Shown here one piece after another: positions 13,455-19,607 of a stretch of DNA of 20,784 nucleotides. This DNA is from a virus. The notes beneath the pieces are model-generated. The model was not told the origin of the DNA, ran no database searches, and was given only the letters and a program-made list of their open reading frames with translations. How positions within the stretch are numbered: the first letter of the stretch is position 1; every line of letters starts with the position of its first letter. Made by a program: the position numbers and the translations under genes. Where the stretch lies: IMG/VR virus record IMGVR_UViG_3300018421_000278, positions 1 through 20,784 of that record. One strand, written 5' to 3'.

Positions 13455-13560
13455 AAACACATTTTAAGGCAATAATTATAATAAAACACACATGGCACAC
13501 ATGGCATTTCTTTAATACTTCTGGCACATAAAATAAAAACAACATAGGCACTACACCGCA

Positions 13561-13835
13561 CCATGTAAATGGCTCCTTGAGGTGGCAATTAACTCGCCAT
13601 CGGAATCTGGAGATGTAGTCGTATAGATGCAACAAACGTTATGGCATTAAATAGATGCAGGCTCTGAGAAAAAGCAACCTGCAAATTAGTATAATTAAAC
13701 TCGTCTAGATTATATTAGTTTCCGTGAGGCTGGCAACAGCAGTGACGGTAGTGTATGGGGAGAGAAGGCTCACCGCTTCCTAGTAGCACCCGAGATTGAG
13801 ATGGCGATACTTGTCGTGATGAGTGTCATTTTTTT
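13561..13835 (+). ncRNA. Candidate structured RNA, class unknown
   Basis: Plus-strand hairpins: CCAT-GTAA-ATGG (13561-13572) and GCTG-GCAA-CAGC (13729-13740), both with GNRA tetraloops; the second is enclosed by CCGT/ACGG (13722-13748) with an internal loop GAG/AGTG. TGCAGG/CCTGCA pairs near 13657-13682, and GTGGC/GCCAT near 13582-13600. The loops are GNRA only when read on the plus strand. It ends at a terminator-like hairpin and seven T's. It could be an independent RNA or a structured 3' end of the gp55-cupin mRNA. I cannot assign an Rfam class by eye. Confidence 0.45.
13806..13835 (+). terminator. Probable terminator of the gp55-cupin operon or of the RNA
   Basis: GATACT (13806-13811) pairs with AGTGTC (13822-13827), including one G-T pair, across a ten-base loop. 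An A and seven T's follow (13829-13835). The stem is short, so strength is uncertain. Confidence 0.5.
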
Positions 13836-13855
13836 CACCCGTGCATACGGGTGAA
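13834..13855. repeat. Perfect 9-bp hairpin TTCACCCGT-GCAT-ACGGGTGAA
   Basis: This is the strongest stem in the region. It lacks a U-tract on either strand, so it is not a standard terminator. It directly follows the T-run of the preceding terminator and could protect RNA 3' ends or be a protein-binding site. Confidence 0.6.
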
Positions 13856-13884
13856 TTATGGCTCAACTTTCGTGATAAGTTCTT

Positions 13885-13899
13885 AAGAGCTTCGCTCTT
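13885..13899. repeat. Hairpin AAGAGC-TTC-GCTCTT
   Basis: A perfect 6-bp stem with a three-base loop, followed by the longer TTTCTTAC (13909-13916) / GTAAGAAA (13954-13961) stem. The latter encloses a degenerate tract of GAAT/GAAC/GTGA-like tetramers (13917-13952). No function is evident. Confidence 0.45.
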
Positions 13900-13954
13900 C
13901 CTAAAAACTTTCTTACAAATGAATGAGTGAAGTGAAACGAACGAATGAATGTAG

Positions 13955-13976
13955 TAAGAAAAGACACGAAGTGTCT
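13955..13976 (-). terminator. Possible minus-strand terminator of the gp26 operon
   Basis: On the minus strand AGACAC-TTC-GTGTCT is followed by TTTTCTT. It lies about 70 bases beyond the stop codon of the second gp26 frame and faces the convergent plus-strand operon. The interrupted U-tract makes it a moderate candidate. Confidence 0.45.
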
Positions 13977-13985
13977 CTTAACCTG

Positions 13986-14048
13986 ATTGTGCAATATCTT
14001 GCAAATTATTATAAGGATTGGTAGTTATTGCGCAATATGTTGCGCATT
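13986..14048. repeat. Two related 22-base palindromic units
   Basis: ATTGTGCAATATCTTGCAAATT (imperfect, 13986-14007) and a cleaner copy at 14027-14048, whose core TGCGCAA-TATG-TTGCGCA is a perfect 7-bp inverted repeat. They differ at four positions and lie 41 bases apart (start to start). The second overlaps the stop of the minus-strand frame. They could be paired protein-binding sites or RNA hairpins. Confidence 0.45.
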
Positions 14049-14280
14049 AGAGGAATTCGTTTTGTTTGTTACCTGATTTGGCAGCGTTGTATTTGTTAAC
14101 AGTTTTGATTAGTATTTCTCTTTCAGAACTGGACAGCATCCATGCTTCTGACCAAGACACTGAGCCATCACTGTAGATTACCAATTCTGCTATGGCTGAT
14201 TCGAGGGCTTTTTGATCTTCTTTCAGCTTCCCAAGATATGCCACTATCTCTTCGGGCTCAGCTGAACCTAGGAAGCTGTG
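14047..14280 (-). CDS. C-terminal frame of the tail/hub assembly chaperone, reached by -1 frameshift from gp26
   Basis: Open in the -1 frame relative to gp26 from the slippery site at 14280-14286 to the TAA at 14047. It adds 77 residues after Phe286: HSFLGSAEPEEIVAYLGKLK, then a helical charged part and SWSEAWMLSSSEREILIKTV near the end. A W/M-x-L/M-x-x-x-E-R-E-hydrophobic pattern of this kind is common in the T part of phage tail-assembly chaperones. The only nearby in-frame start is a GTG at 14244-14242 with a weak ribosome site, which would give a 65-aa separate protein. Frameshifting instead gives a gp26 fusion of about 363 residues. In T4 the gene after 26 is 51, a hub-assembly factor, so this may be a gp51-like part. 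Its stop lies in a palindrome. Confidence 0.7.
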   Translation of the reverse strand, partial: HSFLGSAEPEEIVAYLGKLKEDQKALESAIAELVIYSDGSVSWSEAWMLSSSEREILIKTVNKYNAAKSGNKQNEFL

Positions 14281-15137
14281 AAAAAATTTACAGGATCAAA
14301 GTTAACTTTGCCTGTAAACAAGTAGGGTTCGTCGTTTTCTTTACACTTTTCGTTAGTGCATGTCATCTGCATTTCGTGGTTTAATCCAATAGCGTTGATT
14401 TCTGCTATTTTGTTTTCAATTGCTTTACCAACTGAATTATCACAGTTTTCTAAAAATTCGCGAATTTGATCCCTGTCGTCGACAATCACAGTTTCGCCAT
14501 TGTTAGACACAGACACAGCGTCAACACTGTCGACTATGAGTGTAAAATTTAATGCGGCAATTTGTTTGAAATTGTCGTTGAACAGTCGCAGTCTTTCTAA
14601 ATCGTCTGTGACTTCTGCTAAACCTTGCAAACTACGAGTACTTTGAAAGTTTGTGATACCTGCTTGAATTGTGCTTTCGTATGTAAAAGGACGCACAACT
14701 ATGGTGAGATCTTTATAAGATATGTTGTATGTTTCTTGAATTGTTCCCATGGTGTCTAATGCTAGTTCTACATCTGCAACTCCGACTACTTCTTCTTTAC
14801 ACTTGGGGCATTCAGATGTGATTTCAACATCGTTACCGTAAGAAGCTGCTTGAACTGCAATCAACAGCACATCAACATCGCAATTTAACAATTTTCTTGC
14901 ATTTTTTACATTAGGAATACAACTTTGCAAAACTTGACTAACAGCTTCACCGTTTAACAGTGCATCTGGATTTTTCATAATCATTTCGTCTTTGGCAGTC
15001 ATTGCAAAAATAGGAAGTTCCTTGTTTTCCGGCATCTCTACTACACTAGGCGAATAAAATTTTCCTTGGCTAGGAATTTGTACATACATTTTGGGTGCTC
15101 TAAAATAAGCACTTAATGGATTGTGTTTGTTTGTCAT
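14268..15137 (-). CDS. 26: Baseplate hub assembly protein gp26
   Basis: 289 residues (T4 gp26: 208). It starts with YFRAPKMYVQIPSQGKFYSP and contains PIFAMTAKDEMIMKNPDALL, the conserved opening of the T4 gp26 family (PF12322), where a beta strand is followed by a helix carrying the K-[DE]-E motif. Two Cys pairs, CPKCK (near 110) and CTNEKCK (near 264), probably bind one zinc ion; these are not a feature I know from T4 itself. Gp26 is needed for central hub assembly in T4. Its last codons cross a perfect slippery heptamer three codons before the stop. AAGGA lies just before the ATG, and a GATAAATA late promoter lies 60 bases upstream. Confidence 0.82.
   Translation of the reverse strand: MTNKHNPLSAYFRAPKMYVQIPSQGKFYSPSVVEMPENKELPIFAMTAKDEMIMKNPDALLNGEAVSQVLQSCIPNVKNARKLLNCDVDVLLIAVQAASYGNDVEITSECPKCKEEVVGVADVELALDTMGTIQETYNISYKDLTIVVRPFTYESTIQAGITNFQSTRSLQGLAEVTDDLERLRLFNDNFKQIAALNFTLIVDSVDAVSVSNNGETVIVDDRDQIREFLENCDNSVGKAIENKIAEINAIGLNHEMQMTCTNEKCKENDEPYLFTGKVNFDPVNFFTAS
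14280..14286 (-). promoter_or_regulatory. -1 ribosomal frameshift site T TTT TTC
   Basis: Zero-frame codons are AAT TTT TTC ACA GCT TCC TAG, which gives the canonical X XXY YYZ heptamer with X=Y=T and Z=C. Slipping back one base continues as CAC AGC TTC and stays open for 77 codons. A possible hairpin, CAGCT/AGCTG (14259-14278), begins almost directly after it, with a ten-base loop containing the zero-frame stop. Confidence 0.75.
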
Positions 15138-16409: not shown

Positions 16410-19400
16410 ATGGCCGACATCCAATTGCCAGACGGCAATGTAATTAGAATACCTGACTTTGCGTTAGACAGCACTGCTCAGAAAATGCTCAACGAGCTTC
16501 AAAAACAAACCAAAGGCATGTCCGGGCAACTAAAACTGCTTGTAGAAAATGCTAAAAAAGATTCAAAAGAAGCTAACAAAGATCGCAAAGAAGCAGACAA
16601 AGACAGAGATGCAGTAATCAAAGCCACACAAGAATTAGCCGATGCTATGGAAAAAAGCAAAGGCAGTGGTGTCATGGCGTTTAACAGTACTGGATTAGAT
16701 CGTTTCAACAAAGGTGCTGCTCTGGGTGAAAAAGCATTTGTGAAATTTTACGACGGAGCAGTTGGTGCAGCAAAATATTTAAGCGCCGGGTTTATACTGT
16801 ATGGCGGCTACGTAATTGATAGTTTCTTAGGTTTAGGGCAAACGCTCAACGACATGACCAAAGCAGGCGTAGGCTTTGGTGATGGAGTTGCTGCAGGAGG
16901 CATGACTGCTACACAAGCACTGGAGCGTTTATCAGGCGCAGGACTAGACGGTTCTAGACTCATGATGCAGTTTAGCAATGCTGTTCAACTCATGGGCAAA
17001 CAATCTTTTACTCGAATGACAGAGTCGTTTTTAGATGCTACTAATGCAGGTGCCGATTTAGGCATGAGCTTGGAAGACAGTGCTGATAGATTAGGCAGAG
17101 AACTAGAAAGAAGAAGAGCAATGGGTCTGCTTGATAATATGAATCAACAACAGCTGCAAAAACAGATTACAACTTCTATTAAGCGACAACAGGAATATGC
17201 TAATGCTGTAGGCGAAAGCACAGACACATTGGTTGCTTTTGCTGACAGTTTATTAGAAAGAACTCCCACACTGACTTCAAGTTTGTTGAGGCTGGACAAC
17301 GATCTCAGAGGTAAAGTAGTAGCTGGTATATCAGACTTTGGTGCCGCTATGCGAGCAATGGGCGGCGAAGAAGGCGGCGAAATTGCTATGGCGTTCACAG
17401 AAGCTGCTGCAAGTGGTGCAATGGGCTTTAGTGATTCCATGACAGGATATATTCAAGCATTGCCCAGTTTAGCACCCACAATGAACAAATACATTGGCTC
17501 AATACAAAATGGCACACTGAGTCAAGACGATGCCAATGCAATGGCACAGGATTTAGCAGGACAGTTAAGCAATTTAAGTGAAAGCGAAAAACAGAGAATA
17601 TTTGCACTTGACAGAGCTGGAAATGCACAAGCAGCAAGCATGGCTCGTGCTATAACTCAATTTGAACAAACTGAAAAACGAATCAAAGATATGAATGCAG
17701 GATTAACCATGTCTGGTGTGCAAGCAGGCACAAACGTGTTAACATCCATATTCAAAGAGTTCAGCGGCACAATCGAAGCGTTTAAACTGTCCTTTTTAGA
17801 AGGATTAGGTGGTGCTGCAACTGGCGCAGACAGTTTAAAAGAAGCCTTTGCAGAAGTTAAAAAAAGTATAGGCACATCAATCGGCACACTTATGAATTCT
17901 TTTGGATTTGCTGGAGATGCAGTTGATGGCTTAACAGGTGCAGGCAAATCACTGGGAGAACAACTAGGAGAAAGACTACCCAGCATAATAAAAGCTGTTG
18001 GCGAAAAAGTAAGTGCAATTATAACATCTATTGGTAATTGGCTAAGCCAGTTCCAAAAAGACGGTAAATTTGATTTTAGTGAAATGATAAAAAGCATTAA
18101 AACTAGTATGTTAGATGGACTTAAATCTATGATTTTAGATGTAGGCAAACATTTAATACTTGCTATTGCCGGAATACAAATTTTAAAAATAGTTAGCAGT
18201 AAATTAATATCTGGATTAGCTGGGCCAATGGATGCTATCAGTAAAGGTGTCGGTAAAATTATTTCAAATTTAGCCAAAGGGGTAGGAAACGCAGTTACCG
18301 CAGTGCTTGGTGCTGTGGGCAAAGCTATGACAAATATAGGTAGTGGCATTGCAGGGTTAAGTAAAGGAATAGGAAACACATTTACAAGTTTAGTTAATGC
18401 TGTGAGCAAAGGTGTATCTTCTATTGCAACTGCTATATCAAATGTTGTAAGCAGTATAGGAAAAGGGTTAGGTGGTTTGATACAAGGCACACTAACTGGC
18501 GTAGGAAAAGGATTAGCAGCACTAGGTAATCCTAAAGCAATGCTTGGCAGTGTTACACTCGGCTTGTTAGCAGGAGTTATGTTTCTTGCTGCTAAATCGT
18601 TCCAAGCATTTGCAGATGTAAGTTGGGACGCAATAGGTAAAGGTTTTGTTGCACTGTTAGGGTTAGGTGCTGTGTCTGCTGTATTAGGACTAGCACTGCC
18701 ACTTATTATCCCAGGTGCAGTAGCAATTGGCGCACTAGGACTAGCACTTGTTCCGTTTGCCGCGGCAGCTATGTTGGCAGCTCCTGCAATGGATACTATC
18801 ACAGACAGTTTAATAAGACTAAAAGATGTTGACATTACTACATTGCTCGGCATTGGCCCAGCAATGGTAGGCCTTGCTGCAGGCATGGCAGCTCTCAGCG
18901 CAGGTGGTTTAATTGGCAGTGTGTTGGATGGGTTAGGCAGTCTGTTTGGCGGCGATAGCCCTGTTGACAAACTGATGAAATTGGGCGAAGCTGCTCCTGC
19001 TGTTAATGCACTGTCAGAAAACATGAAAGGGTTTGGTGACAATGTAGCAACTTTTAACGATGCATTATCTCAAATCAGAGGAGATGTTGCAGCAAGTGAA
19101 TTTGTAAAAATAGCAGATGCGCTAGAAGTGCTAAACGGGCAAATGGATGATATTAGCCTGGTTAAGATAATGAGAATGTCTGCACTTAAAATGTTTGGAG
19201 GTGGCGGAGAACAAGAACAACCTGGCATAACCAATACTGGTACTAGTTCTACTGCAAATGCTTTTTCTGATACAAATATAGGAATAAATGGACCCGAAAT
19301 AGCCAGTATAACGAACAGAGGTGTGTCGCAAACAACAAGTGCAGTACCATCTACTTCTAGAAGACAAGATCGCATAACAACAACTGCACAACAAAACGAT

Positions 19401-19607
19401 AACTTCGGAACAACAGAGCCAGGCTCTACTGAAGGGGAAGGCAGTGGAATGGAAACAGGTGTGTACAACGCCAACCCAGGCAACATGTCAACGATCCTCC
19501 GGGAAATGCTGGATGCACAGCGAGCTGTTGCAGCTAAACAAGAAGAAACCAACAGATTACTCAGAAGAGGTAATCGCACCAGCGAAGAAATCAACAGTAA
19601 CCTCTAA
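16410..19607 (+). CDS. Probable tail tape-measure protein
   Basis: 1065 residues, the longest gene here. The N-terminus is charged and helical (KDSKEANKDRKEADKDRD near 50-67). Residues 120-145 and 580-598 are hydrophobic, and 710-795 form a longer hydrophobic stretch. Residues about 605-705 have Gly-Val/Ile-Gly-Lys/Asn turns, spaced 11 residues at first (GVG at about 613, 624, 635), within amphipathic helix, as in many tape measures. The C-terminus has a disordered Ser/Thr/Gln part and ends in MLDAQRAVAAKQEETNRLLR, a short coiled coil. This layout fits a tape measure. T4 gp29 (590 aa) has no evident similarity to it by eye. At about 0.15 nm per residue, a full-length helix would measure about 160 nm; this is inference. 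It stands alone upstream of gp20 behind its own late promoter. Confidence 0.72.
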   Translation: MADIQLPDGNVIRIPDFALDSTAQKMLNELQKQTKGMSGQLKLLVENAKKDSKEANKDRKEADKDRDAVIKATQELADAMEKSKGSGVMAFNSTGLDRFNKGAALGEKAFVKFYDGAVGAAKYLSAGFILYGGYVIDSFLGLGQTLNDMTKAGVGFGDGVAAGGMTATQALERLSGAGLDGSRLMMQFSNAVQLMGKQSFTRMTESFLDATNAGADLGMSLEDSADRLGRELERRRAMGLLDNMNQQQLQKQITTSIKRQQEYANAVGESTDTLVAFADSLLERTPTLTSSLLRLDNDLRGKVVAGISDFGAAMRAMGGEEGGEIAMAFTEAAASGAMGFSDSMTGYIQALPSLAPTMNKYIGSIQNGTLSQDDANAMAQDLAGQLSNLSESEKQRIFALDRAGNAQAASMARAITQFEQTEKRIKDMNAGLTMSGVQAGTNVLTSIFKEFSGTIEAFKLSFLEGLGGAATGADSLKEAFAEVKKSIGTSIGTLMNSFGFAGDAVDGLTGAGKSLGEQLGERLPSIIKAVGEKVSAIITSIGNWLSQFQKDGKFDFSEMIKSIKTSMLDGLKSMILDVGKHLILAIAGIQILKIVSSKLISGLAGPMDAISKGVGKIISNLAKGVGNAVTAVLGAVGKAMTNIGSGIAGLSKGIGNTFTSLVNAVSKGVSSIATAISNVVSSIGKGLGGLIQGTLTGVGKGLAALGNPKAMLGSVTLGLLAGVMFLAAKSFQAFADVSWDAIGKGFVALLGLGAVSAVLGLALPLIIPGAVAIGALGLALVPFAAAAMLAAPAMDTITDSLIRLKDVDITTLLGIGPAMVGLAAGMAALSAGGLIGSVLDGLGSLFGGDSPVDKLMKLGEAAPAVNALSENMKGFGDNVATFNDALSQIRGDVAASEFVKIADALEVLNGQMDDISLVKIMRMSALKMFGGGGEQEQPGITNTGTSSTANAFSDTNIGINGPEIASITNRGVSQTTSAVPSTSRRQDRITTTAQQNDNFGTTEPGSTEGEGSGMETGVYNANPGNMSTILREMLDAQRAVAAKQEETNRLLRRGNRTSEEINSNL

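Follow-up and report, generated by a model that had tools for sequence, protein, structure and literature searches.

A gp26 gene of T4-like phage type predicted to yield short and long tail assembly chaperones by -1 ribosomal frameshifting

The end of a gp26 homologue found in a viral contig raises the question of how a second open frame, which overlaps the 3' end of the gene and continues past it, comes to be translated. The window analyzed here is the whole of a 20,784-nucleotide stretch of DNA (IMG/VR record IMGVR_UViG_3300018421_000278, positions 1 to 20,784), in which gp26 occupies positions 14268..15137 of the minus strand and has a zero-frame product of 289 amino acids. Read on that strand, the gene ends ...GAT CCT GTA AAT TTT TTC ACA GCT TCC TAG, with the stop codon TAG at 14268..14270 and a slippery heptamer, T TTT TTC, at 14280..14286 (zero frame AAT TTT TTC). 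The -1 frame has no stop between a point 25 nt ahead of the gp26 stop and a TAA at 14049-14047. A ribosome that slipped at the heptamer would enter an extension of 77 codons plus TAA (14047..14280, minus strand; HSFLGSAEPEEI...NKQNEFL), and the predicted product, ...NFF-HSFLGSAEPEEIVAYLGKLK...NKQNEFL, would comprise 286 + 77 = 363 residues. The heptamer, the open frame of 77 codons beyond it, and products of 289 and 363 residues had been put forward in an earlier sequence-only reading of this DNA and are borne out. The favored interpretation, held at a probability of about 0.9, is that this is a T4-like tail assembly chaperone gene in which a -1 frameshift at T TTT TTC yields short and long forms of gp26.

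The heptamer alone proves nothing. TTTTTTC occurs 11 times in the A+T-rich window against 9.6 occurrences expected from shuffling, which is no significant excess, and the evidence instead lies in the combination of a conserved heptamer with an open -1 frame. A scan of viral contigs recovered 46 relatives, 45 of which extend to the end of gp26 and form the assessable set. An open, overlapping -1 frame is present in all 45, and the heptamer is T TTT TTC in 35 and T TTT TCC in the other 10. The extension is conserved at the protein level in an alignment of 29 members, where the motif H-x-F-L directly follows the heptamer. Comparison of the window with five relatives gives pN values of 0.21-0.30 and pS values of 0.64-0.71 for the -1 frame (pN/pS ~0.3-0.46), while the remaining two frames of the same stretch of the window contain 5-6 stops each and show no comparable pattern. 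The -1 frame, and only that frame, is under purifying selection. A pseudogene, a sequencing error, or a frame left open by chance could be proposed for a site like this one, given that a lone T TTT TTC is expected by chance in DNA of this composition, but dozens of independent contigs share the arrangement, isolate genomes have it too, and purifying selection acts on the -1 frame. These comparative data contradict an accidental origin and leave it vanishingly improbable.

The arrangement is also found in much more distant phages. A tblastn search of phage records added 90 further relatives, all with less than 60% identity. All nine of the jumbo-phage records examined (Atu_ph07, Phosso, PAC2, MIJ3, CBB, XbC2, Munch, XaC1, and 121Q) have both T TTT TTC and the -1 frame, at ~30% identity. 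The Munch and XaC1 phages separate the slip site from the stop codon as candidate sources of constraint. In both, the distance from the first base of the slip codons to the zero-frame stop is 39 nt, compared with 15 nt in the window (24 nt further downstream), and the -1 frame nonetheless opens right at the heptamer, indicating that the constraint is tied to where slippage would occur rather than to where the stop lies. The heptamer and frame are likewise found in the cyanophages P-SSM2, Syn9, and S-PM2, in KVP40 and Aeh1, and in Desulfovibrio phage 7757. The comparison with relatives that the sequence-only reading had suggested thus finds both elements kept, from the metagenomic contigs to isolate genomes. 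In HTVC008M and phiM7, the heptamer takes the form T TTT TTT.

In the main alternative no frameshift is involved, and the downstream frame would be a small gene in its own right, translated by termination-reinitiation or from a GTG located 23 nt beyond the gp26 stop. The sequence-only reading had described the second frame as lacking an ATG and a good ribosome site, with a GTG 22 bases past the stop as its only nearby start. It was right that there is no ATG near the frame start and no good ribosome site; an ATG is present at about codon 47 of the extension (AWMLSS), and the GTG, which is preceded by a Shine-Dalgarno match of only 3 bases, lies 23 nt and not 22 past the stop. That GTG is shared by the window and six near relatives, which would suit a separate gene, but it is missing in most relatives. 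A survey of 40 sequences found no start codon position common across groups, no good Shine-Dalgarno sequence that is conserved, and no conserved, well-placed ATG paired with one for the second frame, and in 8 of the 40 there is no ATG, GTG, or TTG anywhere in the first 45 codons. Moreover, H-x-F-L is conserved immediately after the heptamer, ahead of any start codon, and the heptamer itself is conserved, with the -1 frame opening there wherever the zero-frame stop lies. The missing conserved start codon makes a separate gene unlikely as a general rule, and a separate start for the second frame was rejected on these grounds.

Some members of the family do show what such a start could look like. 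An ATG overlapping or adjoining the gp26 stop is found in 121Q, Cygsa01, K362, and BX-1 (TAATG) and in phiM7 (TGATG). In the Ackermannviridae-type phages Vi01 and BX-1, and also in Cygsa01 and K362, the -1 frame is kept without a canonical heptamer. For BX-1, Cygsa01, and K362, the TAATG overlap at the stop suggests that translational reinitiation may be used in place of frameshifting; Vi01 has neither the heptamer nor TAATG. At the locus studied here, initiation apart from gp26 is judged very unlikely, and ribosomal frameshifting is preferred.

Slippage could also be imagined one step earlier, with RNA polymerase rather than the ribosome slipping on the T run. The site in the window is a run of six T residues, which is the sort of sequence this would call for, although transcriptional slippage usually takes a longer run. 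In ten relatives the run is only five T residues long and is followed by CC, and the conserved element is one particular heptamer that keeps phase with the zero frame and has a stem after it. Polymerase slippage is therefore considered extremely unlikely, and a ribosomal event remains the preferred reading.

The relatives with five T residues form a sister clade of ten contigs (L019, L029, L031, L032, L035, and L037-L041) with T TTT TCC at the gp26 end. The clade keeps the -1 frame and has a downstream stem. Given that tandem slippage would be impaired on T TTT TCC, it is proposed, quite tentatively and as a somewhat doubtful option, that slippage in these phages involves a single P-site tRNA-Phe instead of the canonical tandem slip and is enabled by the conserved downstream stem.

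The stem itself is predicted as part of a three-way junction at 14224..14278 on the minus strand, based on minimum free energy and on arms that are conserved in the near group. The 66-nt segment that begins with the heptamer's final base has a minimum free energy of -23.0 kcal/mol (z -2.8), which is equaled by 3 of 200 shuffles. One arm, CAGCTTCC, is able to pair with GGAAGCTG, enclosing two small hairpins. A sister group has the same 5' arm and a different 3' arm ~60 nt on; there, 85.8% of cells are paired compared with 29-53% in slid controls, and two pairs show compensating changes. No covariation was found in the window's own group, where the stem is conserved with too little variation. 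The usual spacer between a heptamer and a stem is 5-9 nt, and this stem starts closer, only 2-3 nt past the heptamer, which is a point against the frameshifting interpretation, as is the coding constraint on the 5' arm. Since both arms code for protein and the sequences compared are related, the role of the stem as a frameshift stimulator is rated only as likely.

The identity of the proteins gives the second frame a functional setting. The gp26 product matches the Pfam family PF12322 (T4_baseplate) with an E value of 6.9e-19 and 68.8 bits against a curated cut-off of 24.5, which places it in the T4 gp26 family, and it matches PHROG 150, baseplate hub, at E 1.6e-20. An AlphaFold model of gp26 (pLDDT 79) was compared with BFVD and resembles baseplate hub assembly proteins of the T4-like type there, with a best E value of 8e-25. 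A fold search of the PDB with this model found no solved structure resembling gp26, which counts somewhat against the interpretation, and PDB sequence searches gave no meaningful match. The extension is modeled as helices (pLDDT 84.8) and is predicted to be the C-terminal domain of the long chaperone (TAC-NC). Searches of Pfam with the extension returned chance-level matches only, and its matches in PHROGs are weak, the best being phrog_18291 (E 2.9e-4), a family of unknown function, which was matched by the extension of a distant member.

A link to T4 gp51 comes from both halves of that protein. The first 200 residues of gp51 match PF12322, as gp26 does, and the gp51 C terminus aligns with the extension of the cyanophage group (hhalign P 6.5e-5). 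The extension of the window's own group aligns weakly with the gp51 C terminus directly (P 0.034) and at P 0.0007 with a combined profile that includes it; this link to cyanophage and gp51 C termini is weak taken alone and is another counterpoint to the frameshifting interpretation. From these alignments, T4 gp51 appears to be a gp26-family protein with a C-terminal segment resembling the extension. The T4 gp26 protein is homologous to the one here, but T4, RB49, and phiAS4 differ in having no slippery site or -1 frame at the gp26 end and in encoding gp51 in a gene of its own that is transcribed divergently. In HTVC008M (gp022, L057:16366-16503, 45 aa) and phiM7 (gp106, L074:1914-2075, 53 aa), small ORFs are labeled "baseplate hub assembly catalyst." These correspond to the gp26 -1 extension with its start trimmed to a usable ATG, and the label is likely a recurrent annotation error. 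The connection between the second frame and gp51 that the sequence-only reading had drawn is supported by these observations.

The expected client of a chaperone of this type is also encoded nearby. Positions 16410..19607 of the plus strand encode a predicted tape measure protein, which matches PHROG 58 (tape measure) at E 1.7e-10; two ORFs lie between it and gp26, whose start is ~1.3 kb away. In phage lambda, gpG and gpGT are the short and -1 frameshifted long chaperones of the tape measure protein, and the gp26 product and its fusion are best read as a TAC-N/TAC-NC pair of this type. A short form paired with a long form from a -1 frameshift, established for lambda and predicted here, is common to both systems, but the lambda pair belongs to another sequence family, uses another slippery site, and is cotranscribed from a position immediately preceding the tape measure gene. 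In the window, gp26 and the tape measure gene are on opposite strands, a difference from lambda that could be held against the chaperone interpretation. However, T4 gp26 is likewise on the strand opposite gp29, so a tape measure gene on the same strand is not a defining feature in T4-like phages. On the other side of gp26, ~590 nt (13455-14046) separate the -1 extension from a cysteine-dioxygenase-like ORF, have no assigned function, and hold a hairpin, CACCCGTGCATACGGGTG. This stretch had no Rfam, tRNA, or phage-DNA match, and the Rfam and tRNA/tmRNA scans as a whole gave no match.

Vladimirov and colleagues are said to have recognized T4 genes 26 and 51 as separate TAC-N and TAC-NC genes, with frameshifting kept in several other T4-like groups. 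That account fits the match of gp51 to PF12322, the heptamers of the relatives, and the alignment of the extension with gp51. The sequence-only reading had suggested that a frameshift at gp26 of T4-like phages was undescribed; this cannot stand, as tail assembly chaperones of T4-like phages are the subject, by its title, of a 2022 report (Vladimirov, Gautam, and Davidson, Virology 2022, 566:9-15, doi 10.1016/j.virol.2021.11.003). PMC12846349 cites that report in connection with poly-T slippery sequences within the TAC-N genes of T4-like phages, and PMC10885494 cites it as well. As represented in PMC12846349, that system shares with the one here its occurrence in T4-like phages, a poly-T slippery site within the gene for the short chaperone, and a -1 extension. 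The gp26 of the window, with its predicted frameshift, belongs to this already described type of T4-like chaperone. Neither the title nor the citing paper allows the T TTT TCC variant or the conserved stem to be attributed to the 2022 report. PMC3004832 counts both T4 gp26 and gp51 among the hub assembly chaperones. A further parallel is the TAC locus of the Vandenendeviridae and Andersonviridae, where a conserved -1 frameshift takes place at GTTTTT at the 3' end of TAC-N (PMC12846349); the poly-T motif and its position are shared in kind with gp26, and the phage families and the exact motif differ.

The following sequence of events is proposed for the phage in the window. Most ribosomes translating gp26 would stop at the TAG and release the 289-aa short form, predicted to act as TAC-N. 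A minority, with tRNA-Phe occupying both the P site and the A site at T TTT TTC, would slip back one base, a step that the adjacent downstream RNA stem probably assists, and would continue in the -1 frame to make the 363-aa long form with its C-terminal helical domain. The short and long forms would then associate with the tape measure protein and direct it as the tail is assembled, as gpG and gpGT do in lambda.

For the gp26 family as a whole, a frameshifted tail-chaperone pair appears to be widespread, extending through marine contigs, jumbo phages, cyanophages, and KVP40-like phages, and the split arrangement of genes 26 and 51 in T4 looks like the exception. Small ORFs annotated as "gp51" or as hypothetical after gp26 would be explained as fragments of the fused product, that is, as an annotation error that recurs across these phages.
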